Under the pieces are notes generated by a model that was not told the origin of the DNA, made no database searches, and saw nothing but the letters and a program-made list of their open reading frames with translations. This document shows positions 27,240 through 50,220 of a stretch of 64,000 nt of DNA, in pieces. Within the stretch, counting starts at the first letter, position 1; each line of letters begins with the position of its first letter. The stretch spans positions 652,501 through 716,500 of the forward strand of contig NZ_ATHQ01000001.1 in assembly GCF_000523275.1 (NCBI RefSeq), given 5' to 3'. Source of the DNA: Lebetimonas sp. JH292. Lineage in GTDB: Bacteria > Campylobacterota > Campylobacteria > Campylobacterales > Nautiliaceae. The translations under genes and the position numbers were made by a program.

Positions 27240-28584
27240 TAAATTATCCTGTTATAATCCTCAAAATCCAGCTTCCATACCTTTACCCCACAAAATCTCT
27301 CTCCTTCGGGACAAACAGGTCTTAAACCTTCTTTATACCTTATTGCACAAGGAGGTAAAAAGTTTTTAGCTGCATTTAATCCAGCATCTTTTAACTGTTT
27401 AACCTGATTATATACTGTATCAAAAATTTCCTCCTGGGCATTATAACAGAGTCTCATTTGAGCCTTATGGGCAAATTCATTAAAATCATCATGTTCTATA
27501 ATTTCTATATTATGGGCATTTAAAAGCGCATAAGCAGCCTTACTAAAACCTAAATTTTTTTTCTCTTTTTCAAAAAAATCATATGAATATTCAACTGCTT
27601 CTTTATATAAATATTTATCTCTATTTCAGCTATTATAATAGGAATATAAAAATCTCTTTTATAAATATCTTCAAGTTTTGCTCTTACAGCAGGTGAGCGG
27701 CGGTGTCTTTGATTTTGGGCATCAGCTGAAAGAGATAGTTTTATATATGAATTAAAGCTTCCAAGTATACTTTCATCTAAATACATACTGCTAAGCCTCA
27801 TAACACCTGCATAATTTGCATTTAAATTAAAATCATAATCCACAATATCAAAAACCTTAACTTTTTCTTTTATATTATGTTTTTCTTTTATTCTCTCTAT
27901 ATCAATTTCTGGAAAAATTACTTTTTCATTTTCTGCAAATTCAATTAAAGGCGCTAAATTTTCATCAATTTTAAGCATTTGCTGTTTTAACTGATTTACA
28001 AAATCATTTGCTTCTTCTTTAGCTTCAGGAATTACCTTGACGGCTGTTATATATCTTAGGGCTGTAATTACATTAACTGTATGATAAAGATGGGCATTCA
28101 TTCCCATTGGCAAAAGATATCTTGCAAATTCCTGTGCTTTTTTCTTTGCTGATTTTTTTTGAAATTTAGGAAGGATTTGTTCAATTACAGGAGTTAGCTT
28201 TTCTATTAATTTTTCATAATAATTAAACATTGTTTCATAATAATTTTGCCAAGATTCTTTATTACAATTTTTAGGATAAGTAAAATTATCAACTTTCATT
28301 TTTGCATATCTTTGAGATACTTGTTCTGAATTATAAAAAGGGTGAGAATGAAGTAATCTCCAAATTAAAAGCCTGCTCATTCCTTCAATTAAAAAAGTAA
28401 AATGATAATGCATTAGGGTTGTATGATGCCCTGCTTTAAAAATAGAATTTAAAAGTTCATTTTTTTTATCCCACTTAGCCACATCTTCAGGAGTTATAAT
28501 ATTCTTTCCAAAATAGCAGCTCCTGGCACTTCCTACTGCTATATCTGTCGGTTTATAATTAGTTTTTAGAGCCGTTATTTTCAT
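27239..28584 (-). pseudogene. thyX: Long FAD-dependent thymidylate synthase ThyX, interrupted by a one-base frameshift
   Basis: The first frame (28584 down to 27550) starts MKITALKTNYKPTDIAVGSARSCYFG and contains GHHTTLMHYHFTFLIEGMSR, SEQVSQRY and, late, QNQRHRRSPAVRAKLED (the RHRxxS ThyX motif), then runs into AEIEINIYIKK and stops. In the other frame, from the same spot, NRDKYLYKEAVEYSYDFFE, then AHKAQMRLCYNAQEEIF and a Cys-containing tail, continue to TAG at 27239. Adding one A to the AAA at about 27624-27627 gives one 449-codon frame reading IIIAENRDKYLYKEA. The N-half keeps the SxQRY-type and the C-half the RHR-type motif, so it looks like a two-domain ThyX. Sequencing error or real mutation cannot be told apart. 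Confidence 0.8.
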
Positions 28585-29395: not shown

Positions 29396-31681
<2,286 letters not shown>

Positions 31682-31711: not shown

Positions 31712-32764
31712 TCATATATTAAGAGGCATTACTATTGTCAGGAAATTCTCACTGTTTAAGATAAATGGAATATTTGGTTCGTTTAACCCCAAGATAAAAT
31801 CTTCCTTATCTATTACAGTTAAAAAGTCTATTATATATCTGCTGTTGACGGCAAATGTGAATTCTTCTATATCGCAGTTGTAATCAAAACTTGTTTTAGC
31901 CTGCATACTTTCTTCTGATATACTTTCAAATTCAATTTTGTCTTTTCTTATTGTAATTTTTACTTCTGTGGAGACTATACTTATCTGTTTTAAATGTGAA
32001 AGAAATTCATTTTTATCAATTTTTAATTTATATATCAGATTTTTTGGTATAATTTTTTCATAAGTAGGAAATTTTCCGTTTATCAGTTTGGTGAAAAAGA
32101 ATATGTTTTTGTTTTTTAAAATTAAATAAGTCTCGTCATAAAAAATCTTCATATCATCTCTGATAATTCTTTTAATTTCTGCAATTGAACGTTTAGGTAC
32201 TATTATTTTATTTTCTTTTGCTTTTGCATTTGAATAATAAAGTGCAAGTCTTCTTGTATCGGTGGAAACAAAATTTGATTTTTCTTTTAAATCAAATAAA
32301 GCCCCGTTTAATTCATATTTCGGATTATTTGTATCGATTACCGGATAAATTTTTTTTATTGCATCTTGAAATTCATCTATTTTTATATCAATTTTTTCCA
32401 AATTATCTGTTGTTGGAAATTCAGGAAATTGGTTAGGATCGAATGAAATTAACTTATATACGGAGGTGTCTTGGATTATTGTTATTTTTTCATTTTCGGA
32501 AATTATTTCAATTTCTTTGTTTTTAAGGGCTTTTACGATATTGTTTATTTTTTTTGCATTTAGTGTTATTTTACCTTTTTTTAATATTTTACATTTTGTT
32601 GATAGCTTTATTCCTATTTCTTTATCTGTGGCTTTTATAGTTAGTTCTTCATCTGCTTCTAATAAAATATGTGATGTTATCTGGGTGTTGTCTTTTTTTT
32701 CAGTAAAACCCATTATATTTGATAATATGCTTTCTATTAACGGTTTTTCAATTTTGATATGCAT
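31712..32764 (-). CDS. dnaN: DNA polymerase III beta sliding clamp
   Basis: A 350-residue clamp. The three-fold repeated fold is recognisable from MHIKIEKPLIESILSNIMGFTEKK at the start, KYELNGALFDLKEKSNFVSTDTRRLALYY in the middle, and AVNSRYIIDFLTVID with the terminal TIVMPLNI (the M-P-L binding-pocket end seen in bacterial clamps). It lies downstream of dnaA, separated by the origin region. The ATG is preceded by AAAAGGAG. Confidence 0.96.
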   Translation of the reverse strand: MHIKIEKPLIESILSNIMGFTEKKDNTQITSHILLEADEELTIKATDKEIGIKLSTKCKILKKGKITLNAKKINNIVKALKNKEIEIISENEKITIIQDTSVYKLISFDPNQFPEFPTTDNLEKIDIKIDEFQDAIKKIYPVIDTNNPKYELNGALFDLKEKSNFVSTDTRRLALYYSNAKAKENKIIVPKRSIAEIKRIIRDDMKIFYDETYLILKNKNIFFFTKLINGKFPTYEKIIPKNLIYKLKIDKNEFLSHLKQISIVSTEVKITIRKDKIEFESISEESMQAKTSFDYNCDIEEFTFAVNSRYIIDFLTVIDKEDFILGLNEPNIPFILNSENFLTIVMPLNI

Positions 32765-32884
32765 TGTTTCTCCTTTTTAAATTTCTTTAATAGTAATAAT
32801 AAGCAGCGTTAATATGTGAAAAACTTTATTTTTTACCATTATATCTAATTTCTCTTGGTGAATGTGAAAATTTTTTTGTTCACA
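32765..32884. other. Probable replication origin (oriC) between dnaA and dnaN
   Basis: A 120-base, very AT-rich gap. DnaA-box-like 9-mers: TGTGAAAAA at 32815-32823 (reverse of TTTTTCACA), TGTGAAAAT at 32863-32871, and TTGTTCACA at 32876-32884, the last abutting an eight-of-nine TTATTCACT at 32885. Next to the 32815 box are the only GC-rich bases (GCAGCG, 32803-32808) and then five DnaA-trios. Box, GC-rich spacer and trios together form the basal unwinding arrangement known from bacterial origins; C. jejuni is known to use the dnaA-dnaN gap. Confidence 0.72.
32788..32802 (+). promoter_or_regulatory. DnaA-trio element
   Basis: TAA TAG TAA TAA TAA: five consecutive TA(A/G) triplets. Read away from the neighbouring DnaA box (leftwards on this strand) they are 3'-AAT AAT AAT GAT AAT-5', matching the 3'-(G/A)AT-5' trio consensus through which DnaA stretches one strand during origin opening. 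A 12-base spacer separates them from the box. Confidence 0.65.
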
Positions 32885-34195
32885 TTATTCACTTTTTTTA
32901 AGTTGTATTTTACTTTTTAGTTCTTCTATTTTCATTCTGAAATCCGCGTCTTCTTTTAATTTTTTGTTAAAACTTTTTATAGCATGGCTTACTGCACTGT
33001 GATCTTTGAGACCAAAATATTTCGCAATTTTAGGAGTTGATTCCTGGGTAAATTCTCTTGCAAGGTAAATTGCGCATCTTCTTGCCTGAACAATATTTCT
33101 GTTTCTGCTTTTTGAACTTATTTCACTTGGTTTTATATTGAATTCTTTTGCAATTAATTCTATTATATCCTCGAGTGTAATATTTTCTTTTTTATCTTTT
33201 ATATGTTCTTTTAGCGCCTGTTTTGCAAAATCGAGAGTAATTTTGTTTACTCCGAGAATTTTGGACATTGCATTTATTTTTGTAATCATCCCTTCAATTT
33301 CACGTATATTGGAATCGAGTTTTGTAGCAATATATTCTATTATTTCATCAGGCAGGTAAATTCCGTTAAGCTCGCATTTTTTTCTTATTATTTCTATTTT
33401 TGTTTCAAGTTCAGGAGGTTGAATATCTACTATAAGTCCTGCTTCAAATCTGCTTCTGAGTCTGTCTACCAGGTCATAAAGTTTTTTGGGAGGTCTGTCC
33501 GCTGTTAGGCAGATTTGTTTTTTTTGATTATACAGTTCATTGAATGTATGGAAAAATTCTTCCTGGGTCTGTTCTTTCCCGGCAAAAAACTGAACATCGT
33601 CGATAAGCAGCACATCGCAGTTTCTGTATTTTTCGTGAAATCTCTCGGGTGTTTTCATTCTTATGTTTTCTATAAATTCGTTCATAAATTGTTCGCTTGT
33701 TACATATAATACATTAAGTCTATTTTTGAGATAATTTCCAATTGCCTGGAGCAGGTGCGTTTTTCCGAGTCCGACACCTCCGTATATAAACAGCGGGTTG
33801 TAATTTTTTCCTGGGTTTTCAGCTACACTTTTTGCAGCTGTGTATGCAAACTGGTTTGAGGGTCCCACTATAAAACTCTCAAACGTATATTCGGGAATCA
33901 GGACACTGATTTGGGTAAGGGAAGGGGTGGCTTCAATATTTGTAATTTTAGGTTTTATTTTTCCGGTTATAATTTCAATATTGGGTTTTATTCCCGTTTC
34001 TTTTTCATAAAGTGAAATTATTTTATTTAAAAATTTTCTTTTTATATAGCTTGCTATGAAAATATTTGCGGCTTTGATTATCAGATGCGATGATGATGAA
34101 TTTTCTTCATCGAGTGTTAAATTTTTTAAAAATTTATTATAATTCACAGGATTTTCACTTTTTAAGTGTTTTTTTATTTTTTCAAATAAGTTCAA
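32885..34195 (-). CDS. dnaA: Chromosomal replication initiator DnaA
   Basis: A 436-residue initiator when started at TTG 34195, which has AAAGG six bases upstream and gives an N-terminus (NLFEKIKKHLKSENPVNYNKFLKNL) that fits DnaA domain I. A longer frame up to 34282 would translate the DnaA boxes themselves and adds a segment unlike DnaA. Domain III shows Walker A GGVGLGKTHLLQAIG, Walker B VLLIDDVQFFAGKEQTQEEFFHTFNELY and arginine-finger region VDRLRSRFEAGL. Domain IV has REFTQESTPKIAKYFGLKDHSAVSHAIKSF, the DNA-binding signature. Confidence 0.95.
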   Translation of the reverse strand: MNLFEKIKKHLKSENPVNYNKFLKNLTLDEENSSSSHLIIKAANIFIASYIKRKFLNKIISLYEKETGIKPNIEIITGKIKPKITNIEATPSLTQISVLIPEYTFESFIVGPSNQFAYTAAKSVAENPGKNYNPLFIYGGVGLGKTHLLQAIGNYLKNRLNVLYVTSEQFMNEFIENIRMKTPERFHEKYRNCDVLLIDDVQFFAGKEQTQEEFFHTFNELYNQKKQICLTADRPPKKLYDLVDRLRSRFEAGLIVDIQPPELETKIEIIRKKCELNGIYLPDEIIEYIATKLDSNIREIEGMITKINAMSKILGVNKITLDFAKQALKEHIKDKKENITLEDIIELIAKEFNIKPSEISSKSRNRNIVQARRCAIYLAREFTQESTPKIAKYFGLKDHSAVSHAIKSFNKKLKEDADFRMKIEELKSKIQLKKSE

Positions 34196-34364
34196 TTTAA
34201 ACCTTTGTATAAATTTTGTGAAAATTTTTTTATTCACATGTTGAAAAATTTGTGAAAATTTATGTGAATTTAATTTTATCATAACCTAAAATAAATGTCT
34301 ATATAAGTTATTCACATTGTGAAAAAGATGTGAATAAAAACTGAATTAATTGTGAAAGGAAATA
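34196..34364. promoter_or_regulatory. DnaA-box cluster upstream of dnaA (second origin module or autoregulatory region)
   Basis: Perfect TTATTCACA at 34230-34238, 34308-34316 and, inverted, 34329-34337; TTTTTCACA inverted at 34318-34326; weaker TGTGAAAAT at 34217 and 34251, TGTGAATTT at 34263 and TGTGAAAGG at 34351. Eight boxes in 169 bases between divergent dnaA and ruvC. In Helicobacter the origin is bipartite with boxes on both sides of dnaA, so this may be the partner module; it must also contain the dnaA and ruvC promoters. Confidence 0.75.
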
Positions 34365-34829
34365 ATGAAAATATTGGGAATCGATCCCGGAACCATCAGA
34401 TGCGGATATGCAATTATTGAAACAAAGCCCAAAATTCATCTGATAGATGCGGGAATTATAAAAATAAAAGAAAAAGAGTTACAGTATCAATTGTCCGAAC
34501 TTATAGAAGGGATTGATAATATATATCAAAATGATATAGACGATGTCGCAATAGAAAATATTTTTTATGCGTTTAACCCTAAAACTGTTCTTAAACTGGC
34601 CCAGTTTAGAGGGGCTTTGAGTCTTAGGGTTTTGCAAATCCATGGGAATTTTTTTGAATATACCCCACTCCAGGTTAAAAAAGCTGTAACAGGAAACGGA
34701 AAAGCCGCAAAAGAGCAGGTTGCATTTATGGTTAAAAAAATTTTGGGTATAAAAGGTGAAATCAAACCTTTTGATATTACCGATGCAATTGCTGTGGCAA
34801 TTACCCACGCTCAGAGGATAAAATGTTAG
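34365..34829 (+). CDS. ruvC: Holliday junction resolvase RuvC
   Basis: A 154-residue endonuclease. [16 protein letters not shown] holds the first catalytic Asp (D7), [25 protein letters not shown] the Glu and DNA-binding loop, and [14 protein letters not shown] the C-terminal Asp pair. Length is normal. GAAAGGAAAT precedes the ATG. Divergent from dnaA across the DnaA-box cluster; its last seven bases overlap the next gene. Confidence 0.96.
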
Positions 34830-36813: not shown

Positions 36814-37597
36814 TGCATTTATTTATACAATCAATGTCTTTTAAAATGGTTTCCAACGTTTCAGGCGTAATCATATTAGGTCCGTCGCTTAAAGCCTCAT
36901 CTGGATTGTAATGTGTTTCAAAGAAAAATCCGTCAACCCCAACCGCTGCGGCAGCTTTACTTAAATATGGCACGAATTCCCTTTTACCGCTGCTTTTTCC
37001 CCCGGCGCCGCCCGGCATCTGAACGCTGTGTGTTGCATCAAAAATAACAGGTGCGTAATTTCTCATAATAACCAGACTTCTCATATCAACCACTAAATTT
37101 CCATATCCGAATGTGGTGCCTCTTTCAGTTAACCATACATCGTATTTTTTTGAATTTTCGTATGTGGCTTCTTTTATCCCTCTTGTTTCAAGCACTTTTA
37201 AAACAGAATATTTCATATCGGCCGGATTCATAAACTGGCCTTTTTTAATATTAACTATTTTATCTGTTTTTGCGGCTTCGGTTAATAAATCCGTCTGGCG
37301 GCAAAGAAACGCCGGAATTTGAAGAACATCCACAACCTCAGCTGCTTTTTGAACCTGCCATGTTTCATGAACATCAGTTAAAAGTTTGTATCCGAATTTT
37401 TCTTTTACTGCATTTAATATCTCAAGCCCCTTGTCAATTCCGGGGCCTCTATAAGAATTTAATGAAGTTCTGTTGGCTTTATCAAAGCTTGCTTTAAAAT
37501 AAAAATCGTATTTTTCTTTGTATGGTTTTAGATATTCCGCAATTTTAAAAATCTGTTCTTTACTTTCTATTACGCAGGGTCCTGAAATTAATATCAT
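36809..37597 (-). CDS. kdsA: 3-deoxy-D-manno-octulosonate 8-phosphate synthase
   Basis: A 262-residue TIM-barrel enzyme condensing PEP with arabinose-5-phosphate for the LPS inner core. [20 protein letters not shown] at the start, [53 protein letters not shown] and [14 protein letters not shown] are all KdsA motifs. The Cys in the AFLCRQT strand suggests the metal-dependent class may apply, but the N-terminal metal Cys is not clearly placed. Precedes ribH and nusB. Confidence 0.96.
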
Positions 37598-37644: not shown

Positions 37645-39714
37645 ATGACCAGAAAAGTTAAAAAAATATCTTTGCAGATTTTTTTATTGCCTATTTTAAT
37701 GACACTATTTGCGGTTGTTGTTTCTTATGTTTCTGTTTTTATCACGCTTGATGGTTATTTTAAAAAACAGCAGATTCAAACTCAAAAAGAATTTTTCAAA
37801 GACCTTAAAACAACTACCAAAATCAGGGTTGATATAGCTTATAATATTTTAGCCACAATATATAATGAAGAAATTCAAAAATGTAATGAACAGCATATTC
37901 CAAAAAATATTTGTAAACAGAAAATTTTAAAAAAAATAGTAAAAATTTTTGATAATTTCAGATGGCCCAACAAAGGTTATATTTTTATTTTGGATTTTTA
38001 CGGAAACACATTATATCATCCCGACCATGGTTTAATGAAAATAAACAGATGGAATTTAACAAGAAACGGAATAAAAGTGTTTCAGCTTTTGGTAAATGAA
38101 GCCAAAAAACATCCTGACGGAACATATGTAAGATATTTGGGATACAATTTTAACAAAAAGCCTGTGTGGAAAGTTTCTTATGTTAAAGTTTTTAAACCGT
38201 TTGACGCATTGGTGGGAAGCGGGGTATATATTAATTTTTTGAATGAAAGATTGGTGGAACTTCAAAAAAAACAGCAGCAGTTATTTAAAGAAATGAGTAA
38301 AAAATTAAAAATTTTCAGTTTTTTAATTTTATTTGTTTCTTTAATTATTTCATATATTCTGGCAAAAATAGTTCAAAAAATGTTTTTGGATTATGAAAAA
38401 GAAATTGAAAAAGAACAGTTAAAAATAAGAGAAAAAAGCATTACGGACAATTTAACAGGGCTTTTTAACAGAAATTATTTAAAATATGTATTTGGAATAT
38501 TACAGGCTAAAATTAAAAGAGAAAATAAAAAACTGGCCATTTTGTTTATAGATTTGGATTACTTTAAAGAAGTTAATGACACTTTGGGACATAAATATGG
38601 AGATATCTTATTAAAGGTAATTTCAAAAAGATTAAAAAATGTTTTAAGAAAAGACGATATTTTAATCAGATTCGGCGGGGATGAGTTTCTTGTTTTTATT
38701 CCTTATAATAAAATTGATGAGGTTTTAATTGTTATTGACAGGCTTAAAAAGGCTATAAAAGAAAAAATTTTAATAAACACTAAAGAAATTAATATAGATT
38801 CGAGCATAGGTGTTTCTGTTTATCCGGTTGACAGCGAAGATTTGAATGATTTGATTAAATATGCCGATATGGCAATGTATGAAGCAAAAAGAAAAGGTAA
38901 AGGAAATTTTGAATTTTATAAAAAAGAGTTAGGTGAAAAAATTAAAGAAAAAACCGAATTAAAAAGGGATTTAATAAAAGCAATAGAAAATGAAGAGTTT
39001 GATATTTATTTTCAGCCGAAAGTTTCAAAAGATGAACACTTATATGGAAGTGAAGTGCTGATAAGATGGAATCATCCTAAAAAAGGTCTGTTAACTCCCG
39101 ATAAATTTTTGCAAATCGCATATGAAAAAAAATTAATCAAAAATATTGATTTAATTGTGCTGAAAAAAGCTATCAATCAATATATAAAATGGCAGGAAGA
39201 TGGTTATAATCCCGGGAAAATCAGCTGCAATATTACTATGATAGATTTGCAGGACAATAATTTTATAAATCAAATAGAAGCTGTTTTGAACGATAATGAT
39301 TTTGATTCTAAAAATCTGATTTTAGAAGTTACAGAAGAGAGTATAATGAAAAATCCACAAAAAAGTGTTGGTTGTTTAAACAGGCTGAGAAATTTGGGAA
39401 TAGGAATTTCCATTGACGATTTTGGGACAGGTTATTCATCTTTATCATACCTTAAAAAATTTCCGTTAACAGAATTGAAGATAGACAAAACTTTTGTAAA
39501 AGATATAAGTATAGACAGGGATGACGAAGAAATAGTGAGAATTATTATTTTACTTGGAAGAGTCCTTAATTTATCAATTGTCGCAGAAGGGGTTGAAACA
39601 AACAGACAAAAGGAATTTTTATTATTGGAAGGTGTTGACATTATTCAAGGATATTTGTATTCTCCCCCGATTAACGCAGAAGAATTTGAAGAAAAATTTC
39701 TAAAAGGATTTTAA
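37645..39714 (+). CDS. Membrane Cache-GGDEF-EAL cyclic-di-GMP protein
   Basis: A 689-residue signalling protein. TM1 at about 10-32, a periplasmic single Cache (sCache_2-like) domain (about 35-205) with [23 protein letters not shown]2 near 222-242, then a GGDEF domain with intact FGGDEF and an upstream RKDD inhibitory-site motif, and an EAL domain. In the EAL part the signature is EVLIRW (E-V-L), with [27 protein letters not shown] and VAEGVE all present, so phosphodiesterase activity is plausible. Both activities may exist; which dominates is not readable. AAAAAGGAG precedes the start and dapF overlaps its stop. Confidence 0.93.
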
Positions 39715-48341: not shown

Positions 48342-50220
48342 ACAACCATGTTTCTTCCTTTTTCTTTTGCCTTATAAAGAGCTCTGTCGGCTCTGTTTAC
48401 TATTGAAATATTATCGTCATTTTCTTTTAATTCAGATATACCGAAAGATATAGTAACATTTAAACCGTCAAAATCATGCTCTTGTATAATTTTTTTTAGT
48501 TTTTCACAAATTTTAACCGCTTCTTTTGCTTTGGTGGAAGGTAATATAAAAATTCTTCTCCTCCCCATCTACCAAAAATGTCTGTTTTTCTAATATTTTT
48601 TCTTTTAAAGCTTCATCTCCTTTTTCATGTCCATAAATGTCATTAATTTTTTTGAAATGGTCTATATCAAAATATATGATTGATAAAGGGGTTTCATATC
48701 TTTTTGCTCTTTCAATTTCCTCAATTAATCTTTTGTTCATTTCCAGTCTGTTATAAATTTCTGTAATAAGTTTGTCATGAGTTGCTTTTTTATTTTTTTT
48801 ATTTTGAAAAACAAAAGAACCAATAAAACCAGTATTAACGATAAGCTTGCTATTATAACAGCACCTATTAAATATCTTTTTTTTACTTTTTCGTATGGTA
48901 TTCCTTTTTAAATTTCTTTGAAATATTTGATATATAATATGCCAGTGTGGGGAAAATATCAATAACTCCGAAAATTTCCCCTTTTTCCTAAAGTTTTAAA
49001 CCTTCCTCTGAATCTTTTACAGGAACAATTTTGATTTTTGGATAATATTTTTTTACTAACTCGTATGCTGTATAATTTTTTCCTACGGCAATTTTTTTGT
49101 TATATAAATCTTCCATATTTAAAATAACATTTACATTGTTTCAATGGGATAACATACATAAGCCTTTGTAAAAATTGCATATTGTTCTCTTTTTGGAGTA
49201 TTTGTTGTATTTGGAATAACATCAGCTTCTTTATATTTCATTTTATTTAATTCAGTCGTAAAATCAGGTGCAATTTCACAAAATTTTTTCAGATAGATTT
49301 TGTTAATGATATTTTTCCAAAAATCTATAGAAATACCTGTTAATTCATTGTCTTTGAGGTTGAAGTGGATATACAATGAATGAGGTTGTTTTCTATAAAG
49401 GTTTTTTCTGTTTTCTCTGTGATATAAGGGGAATATACAAAATCAAAAAAATCAAAATCGTTTTTTATATTAAAAATTAACGCTGATCTATTTTTTCTCT
49501 GTTAAACAGATAATTTTCTGATAAAAAAGGAAGTGTTTTATAAGCTTCATCTTTTAATTTTTCATATGAGAAATGCTGAGTATTGTATTTTCTGAGAATT
49601 GTTTTTACAGTTTCATCTATATGGGTTTTTGCATACTCCCAGCCTTTTTGAGTTGCTTTTACAAAATTTTTAACAATTACAGGATGTTTTTTTACAAAAT
49701 CTTCTGATGTAAACATCGATGCCTTCATTTAAAGGCGAAAAGAGTTTGTATGGAATAAATAATATAAATACCTTTTTTTAAAAATTTTAGTGGAAATGTC
49801 TATACCGGCTTTTTTTAACATTCCGATGATAGCGATGTTATAAAATCCCATTTTTGGTGAATGTATGATTTCGCCTTTTAGATCTTTTAACGTTTTAACA
49901 GATGGGTCAGTTGAAACAATTGCAATAGGAGTATTTTCAAAAACAGGCATAAGGGCAATGACAGGTTTTCCTTTCAGTTTATAATAAATTAAAGAGGAAT
50001 TTGCAATTCCAAACTGAGCTTTGTTATTTAAAACATCGCTTATAGGATTATTATCGCTAAGTTCTTTAAAAGTTACATTTAAATCATATTTTTTATAAAA
50101 TCCTTTTTCTTTAGCCATATAAAAACCGGCAAACTGAAAAGCATTTTTCCATTTTAAATCCAGTGTAATGTTTTCGGCACTAAGAATTGAAAGTAATATA
50201 AACAAGATTATTGCAGGCAT
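48329..50220 (-). pseudogene. Decayed periplasmic-sensor diguanylate cyclase
   Basis: Fragments in changing frames, read from 50220 downwards: a signal peptide and NMT1/SsuA-type binding domain (MPAIILFILLSILSAENITLDLKWKNAFQFAGFYMAKEKG to KAGIDIS), its continuation in another frame (FVKKHPVIVKNFVKATQKGWEYA), an SBP_bac_3-like domain (LTGISIDFWKNI and TPKREQYAIFTKAY), a piece near 49.0 kb ([17 protein letters not shown]) with a stop inside, a degraded membrane helix, and a GGDEF domain split in two ([21 protein letters not shown]; then [17 protein letters not shown] and NRADRALYKAKEKGRN). The GGDEF signature region itself is frameshifted (GRRR where GG(D/E)EF belongs). At least five frame breaks and a probable deletion of part of the NMT1 domain are visible. 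It overlaps rnj tail-to-tail. Confidence 0.85.

Follow-up and report, generated by a model that had tools for sequence, protein, structure and literature searches.

The window analyzed here, a stretch of 64,000 nt from a 1.64-Mb genome that is about 70% AT, contains the ruvC-dnaA-dnaN-gyrB locus, as judged from Pfam domains, and this locus is one of the features by which the bipartite epsilonproteobacterial oriC is recognized. Three of the genes are on the minus strand, namely gyrB (29396-31672; DNA_gyraseB), dnaN (31712-32764; DNA_pol3_beta domains) and dnaA (32885-34195; 436 aa; DnaA_N, Bac_DnaA and Bac_DnaA_C), while ruvC (34365-34829; RuvC) is on the plus strand. This arrangement agrees with the gyrB-dnaN-dnaA-ruvC order reported for the class (PMC5043019). 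Alignment with relatives and the position of a ribosome-binding site suggest that dnaA starts at a TTG behind AAAGG, and the nearest named relatives of its product come from Nautiliaceae assemblies. The surroundings include a ThyX-type thymidylate synthase gene (Thy1; 27550-28584, minus strand) about 0.8 kb downstream of gyrB and an intact gene for a Cache-GGDEF-EAL protein (37645-39714, plus strand) about 3.4 kb from the dnaA start. Farther away, the stretch 48513-50220 (minus strand) contains parts of a GGDEF domain (48513-48962) and of an NMT1/THI5-like domain (49729-50220) in different frames and without long ORFs, and looks like a decayed sensor-diguanylate cyclase gene. Elsewhere in the genome, one 20-kb tile (G000:C1 180001-200000, L094) has 23% G+C compared to approximately 31% for most of the genome and was possibly acquired recently.

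The gap between dnaA and dnaN is 120 nt long, and its end reads, on the dnaA strand, TTTTTCACA TATTAACG CTGC TTATTATTACTATTA AAGAAATTTAAAAAGGAG, after which dnaN follows. The first element is a DnaA box, TTTTTCACA (32815-32823, minus strand; TGTGAAAAA on the plus strand), which occupies the same place in relatives. It overlaps by one base a second, degenerate box, ATATTAACG (32807-32815, minus strand), with the core TTAAC rather than TTCAN, which we assigned because its position is that of the conserved second TTCA-cored box of relatives. Next come the GC-containing spacer CTGC (32803-32806, minus strand) and a DnaA-trio array, 5'-TAATAGTAATAATAA-3' (32788-32802, plus strand), which is conserved in phase in relatives. 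Counted from the box, the trios are 3'-AAT AAT AAT GAT AAT-5', corresponding to TTA TTA TTA CTA TTA on the dnaA strand (32802-32788), and the run lies 24 nt ahead of the dnaN start. The array therefore has five units, where at least three with a central adenine are called for, on the strand whose 3' end faces the box, and the first box points at it from a distance of 12 nt, within the 16 nt allowed. Tandem boxes are the commonest form of the basal unwinding system without being required for it, and here the second box is present by position, with TTAAC as its core. In B. subtilis, strand separation does not need the downstream box of the tandem pair (PMC8287927). The coordinates that the first-pass annotation had given, including those of the trio and the box, proved exact, and its polarity was right, with the box facing the trio as in published H. 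pylori and B. subtilis origins (PMC8235120, PMC8287927). Its description of GCAGCG (32803-32808) as the GC spacer holds for CTGC; the rest of that hexamer is the end of the degenerate second box. By homology with H. pylori, where unwinding begins at the DnaA-trio (PMC8235120), the opened region is predicted to comprise the trio and an AT-rich stretch running into the dnaN ribosome-binding site (32764-32802).

Other TTCAC-core boxes lie on both sides of dnaA. Within the downstream gap, ACATTCACC (32857-32865) and ATTTTCACA (32863-32871) are on the minus strand, and TTGTTCACA (32876-32884) and TTATTCACT (32885-32893, overlapping the dnaA stop codon) are on the plus strand in outward orientation. 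Upstream of dnaA, eight TTCAC cores form an oriC1-like cluster before ruvC (34196-34364), with a similar counterpart in relatives. The five cores downstream and eight upstream thus flank dnaA as expected of the bipartite epsilonproteobacterial oriC. When the approximately 0.9 Mb of sampled genome was scanned, the dnaA-ruvC gap was the densest 250-bp stretch of TTCAC cores (10 cores, against a mean of 0.46), and the dnaA-dnaN gap was among the next densest, alongside several other stretches. Boxes identified by sequence alone were no more frequent than expected by chance (TTATTCACA with one mismatch, 38 in the window vs. 38.3 expected), and for this reason we did not count box numbers as evidence, with the exception of local density.

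The combination of a box with a trio array is far more discriminating. The five-unit pattern YTAYTAYTAYTAYTA (YTA repeated five times) has a single match on both strands of the 1.64-Mb genome, and it is the trio site at 32788-32802; the reversed, non-complemented control pattern has 2 matches. Likewise, a box with at most one mismatch followed 4-16 nt on by at least four YTA units was found only at the trio site in the approximately 0.9 Mb sampled. The duplex stability of the gap is only mildly unusual in a genome that is AT-rich throughout, with 3-5% of window positions being weaker, and we therefore did not use it as support.

Strand asymmetry places the origin in the same region. The cumulative GC-skew minimum, calculated over 576-776 kb of the genome (with about 5 kb unread), is at window position 31966, inside dnaN and 0.8 kb from the gap, and is a further feature shared with the bipartite epsilonproteobacterial oriC. 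It is a shallow minimum, as a second dip at 37441, 5.5 kb away, is nearly as low. At the scale of the genome, where skew was sampled in 20-kb tiles together with one 200-kb stretch lacking 5 kb, the sign change and the best two-level split fall between tiles centred at 622 and 658 kb, and dnaA is at 685 kb. In a relative assembled as a single contig (G015), skew likewise switches from negative to positive between the tiles sampled at 95 and 180 kb, and dnaA is at 203 kb. The first-pass annotation had proposed a replication origin with a five-unit trio in the dnaA-dnaN gap and had named a skew inflection elsewhere as the observation that would speak against it; the skew minimum at the locus and the conservation of the elements at fixed offsets in relatives both argue for the predicted origin. 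In Nautilia profundicola, of the same family, GC skew also placed the origin near dnaA, and the passages found in that genome paper describe no boxes, trio or unwinding site (PMC2628731).

We assessed this conservation in about 100 genomes of the order by anchoring the 3' flank of dnaA on the last TTCAC before dnaN, an anchor that is wrong for a few genomes (e.g., L074), and examining the 28 nt behind the core of the second box. YTR runs of at least two, three, four and five units were present in 94, 73, 41 and 30 of 98 origins, respectively, while composition-preserving shuffles of the same 28 nt gave 17.3, 1.34, 0.12 and 0.01. TTCA occurs at the second-box offset in 70 of the 98; 29 of these are TTCAC, which is partly a product of the choice of anchor, and the other 41 (TTCAA, TTCAT, TTCAG) are not. 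AACAC is another recurrent variant of the second box. In an earlier set of 70 genomes, the second box was exactly 8 nt on, and the trio run started 13 nt after the box in 40 genomes and 12 nt after it in 9, with the others mostly shifted by whole units. The three-base phase of the trios and their distance to the box are kept in origins from many families. Together, the second box at a fixed offset and the trio runs indicate an order-wide architecture of a first box, an overlapping weaker second box, a spacer of 4-5 nt and trios, an arrangement shared with B. subtilis and largely with H. pylori.

The initiator encoded in the window retains Glu183, Asn187, Lys222 and Glu228 (B. subtilis numbering), which between them hold the central adenine of a trio and the backbone. 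Across 103 DnaAs of the order, Glu183 and Asn187 never vary, and in the cryo-EM structure from B. subtilis the central adenine is read by Asn187 (PMC10721633). The window DnaA has His where B. subtilis has the guanine-contacting Arg202, and four of the five window trios do not have the preferred G beside the central A. We considered co-variation between residue 202 and the first base of the trio in 66 genomes, inspected by eye, and kept it only within the speculative reading of the window's clade given below, as His, Gln, Lys and Arg were all found with CTA-rich trios and the change in the clade is a single event. The genome also encodes HobA, known from this phylum as the partner of DnaA.

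The window belongs to a small clade in which this architecture is modified. The second-box sequence TTAACG and a distance of 12 nt between the first box and the trio are shared by the window, a genome of the same genus (L060) and three others (L061, L062 and L002), whereas the other close relatives (L003-L014) have TTCAA or TTCAC and a distance of 13 nt; the spacer is 4 nt in the window's clade vs. 5 nt in most relatives. The five genomes with TTAACG group together as a single branch in the DnaA tree (support 96/93). Deletion of a single C accounts most simply for both the TTAACG sequence and the 12-nt distance; alternatively, a substitution and a separate deletion in the spacer could have produced them. 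The TTAAC pentamer also occurs without a shift in spacing in two more distant members of the order (L075 and L085). Within the clade the trios are TTA-rich, and the position equivalent to B. subtilis Ile190 is Ile or Thr, as opposed to mostly Arg in other close relatives. One might read this as a natural rewiring in which initiator and origin changed together: in the window's own genus, the genus of G048 and G062, and L002, the second box would have been lost, probably via one deleted base, the first box brought one base nearer the trios, the trios changed from mostly GAT to mostly AAT, and the equivalents of the trio-facing DnaA residues 190/193 from the Arg/Val that prevails in close relatives to Ile or Thr/Ile. 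We regard this reading as speculative and rather improbable, and since the change in the clade is a single event, it is an observation and not evidence of co-evolution. The clade with its decayed second box nevertheless provides a natural test of whether the trio-adjacent box is dispensable, as reported for B. subtilis.

Given the elements and their order, polarity, uniqueness and conservation, the skew minimum and the residues of DnaA, we are highly confident that the dnaA-dnaN gap is the chromosomal origin of this Nautiliaceae bacterium, or more precisely oriC2, its unwinding half, with the design of a basal unwinding system; DnaA binding, duplex opening, looping and the loading of helicase would proceed as published for relatives. 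DnaA would bind the double-stranded boxes of the gap, chiefly TTTTTCACA at 32815-32823, and from there an oligomer of ATP-DnaA would be laid onto the plus strand over CTGC and along the five trios, from 32802 to 32788. Each protomer would capture the central adenine of one trio, so that the duplex would open toward dnaN for helicase loading. Such an extension from the box through the plus-strand trios is expected by analogy with the B. subtilis complex (PMC10721633) and the H. pylori footprints (PMC8235120). The box cluster upstream of dnaA (34196-34364) would be a second sub-origin, possibly joined to the first by a loop and regulating it.

The upstream cluster could be given a larger part. 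If the duplex opened at oriC1, between dnaA and ruvC, the boxes of the dnaA-dnaN gap would only regulate an origin that is still at this locus, and this would fit with oriC1 containing the densest box cluster sampled and with the placement of some epsilonproteobacterial origins upstream of dnaA in DoriC (reported in PMC5043019). However, we found no box-plus-trio arrangement in oriC1, as the only one within 31.7-34.5 kb lies in the dnaA-dnaN gap, and opening by DnaA was confined to the dnaA-dnaN side in each of the three relatives tested (PMC5043019), leaving opening at oriC1 a very slim chance. The cluster could also be given a smaller part, in a layout that is compatible with the main unwinding site: the dnaA-dnaN gap may be sufficient as a monopartite origin, as has been proposed for C. 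jejuni (PMC6052347), with the upstream boxes, which are between two divergent genes and so could be promoter control sites, forming a control region for dnaA and ruvC. The extreme density of these boxes, the recurrence of the cluster in Nautiliaceae and the view that the other studied relatives are bipartite (PMC5043019) all weigh against a monopartite layout, which we consider unlikely while still giving it some credence.

It could be argued instead that the TTATTATTACTATTA run arose by accident in an AT-rich dnaN leader, and that the boxes serve only the autoregulation of DnaA. The base composition of the genome and the closeness of the run to the dnaN start would allow for this, but the run is unique in the genome, and a three-base phase and a box distance that are conserved across many families make an accident scarcely credible. 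The reading that we prefer, with unwinding at the trios of the dnaA-dnaN gap, predicts the site of unwinding at base level for a vent-bacterial family, and the comparison with relatives shows that box, spacer and trio keep their spacing throughout the order. The first-pass annotation had called the origins of this lineage little studied. This is accurate for the family, as our literature search found no oriC dissection in Nautiliaceae and no Nautilia or Nautiliales origin study more detailed than the N. profundicola skew analysis; it is less so for the phylum, where five other members have published oriC work. DnaA-trios with unwinding downstream of dnaA are described in H. pylori, A. butzleri, W. 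succinogenes and S. denitrificans (PMC8235120, PMC5043019), and a degenerate DnaA-trio in C. jejuni (PMC6052347). When 2070 origins were surveyed, the basal unwinding system was predicted in 85% (PMC8287927). Opening of the chromosome in the dnaA-dnaN gap is very probable, and the device, a DnaA box plus a DnaA-trio, is one already known from relatives such as H. pylori; the window site is a precise prediction of an ordinary kind.

The window resembles the B. subtilis basal unwinding system (DnaA-boxes 6/7, GGCC and DnaA-trios; PMC6669920, PMC10721633) in the order and polarity of its elements, its overlapping tandem boxes, its 4-nt GC spacer and the conserved adenine-holding residues of its DnaA, and differs from it in having trios that are mostly 3'-AAT-5' rather than 3'-GAT-5', His in place of Arg202 and a decayed second box. 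H. pylori oriC2 (ts1/ts2, a GC-rich stretch, the DnaA-trio and an AT-rich stretch; PMC8235120, PMC8287927) likewise has packed tandem boxes facing a short GC spacer and about five YTR units, with a second box cluster on the opposite side of dnaA, although its dnaA is in another gene neighbourhood. In addition, the weak box of H. pylori is ts1, the one farther from the unwinding site, whereas in the window the trio-adjacent box is decayed and the box behind it is a good match. The origins of Arcobacter butzleri, Wolinella succinogenes and Sulfurimonas denitrificans (PMC5043019) share with the window the ruvC-dnaA-dnaN-gyrB locus, TTCAC-core boxes in each intergenic region, two opposing arrays of boxes in oriC2, a DnaA-trio and unwinding between dnaA and dnaN, which is predicted in the window; those three origins were demonstrated by footprinting and P1 mapping, whereas that of the window is known from its sequence.
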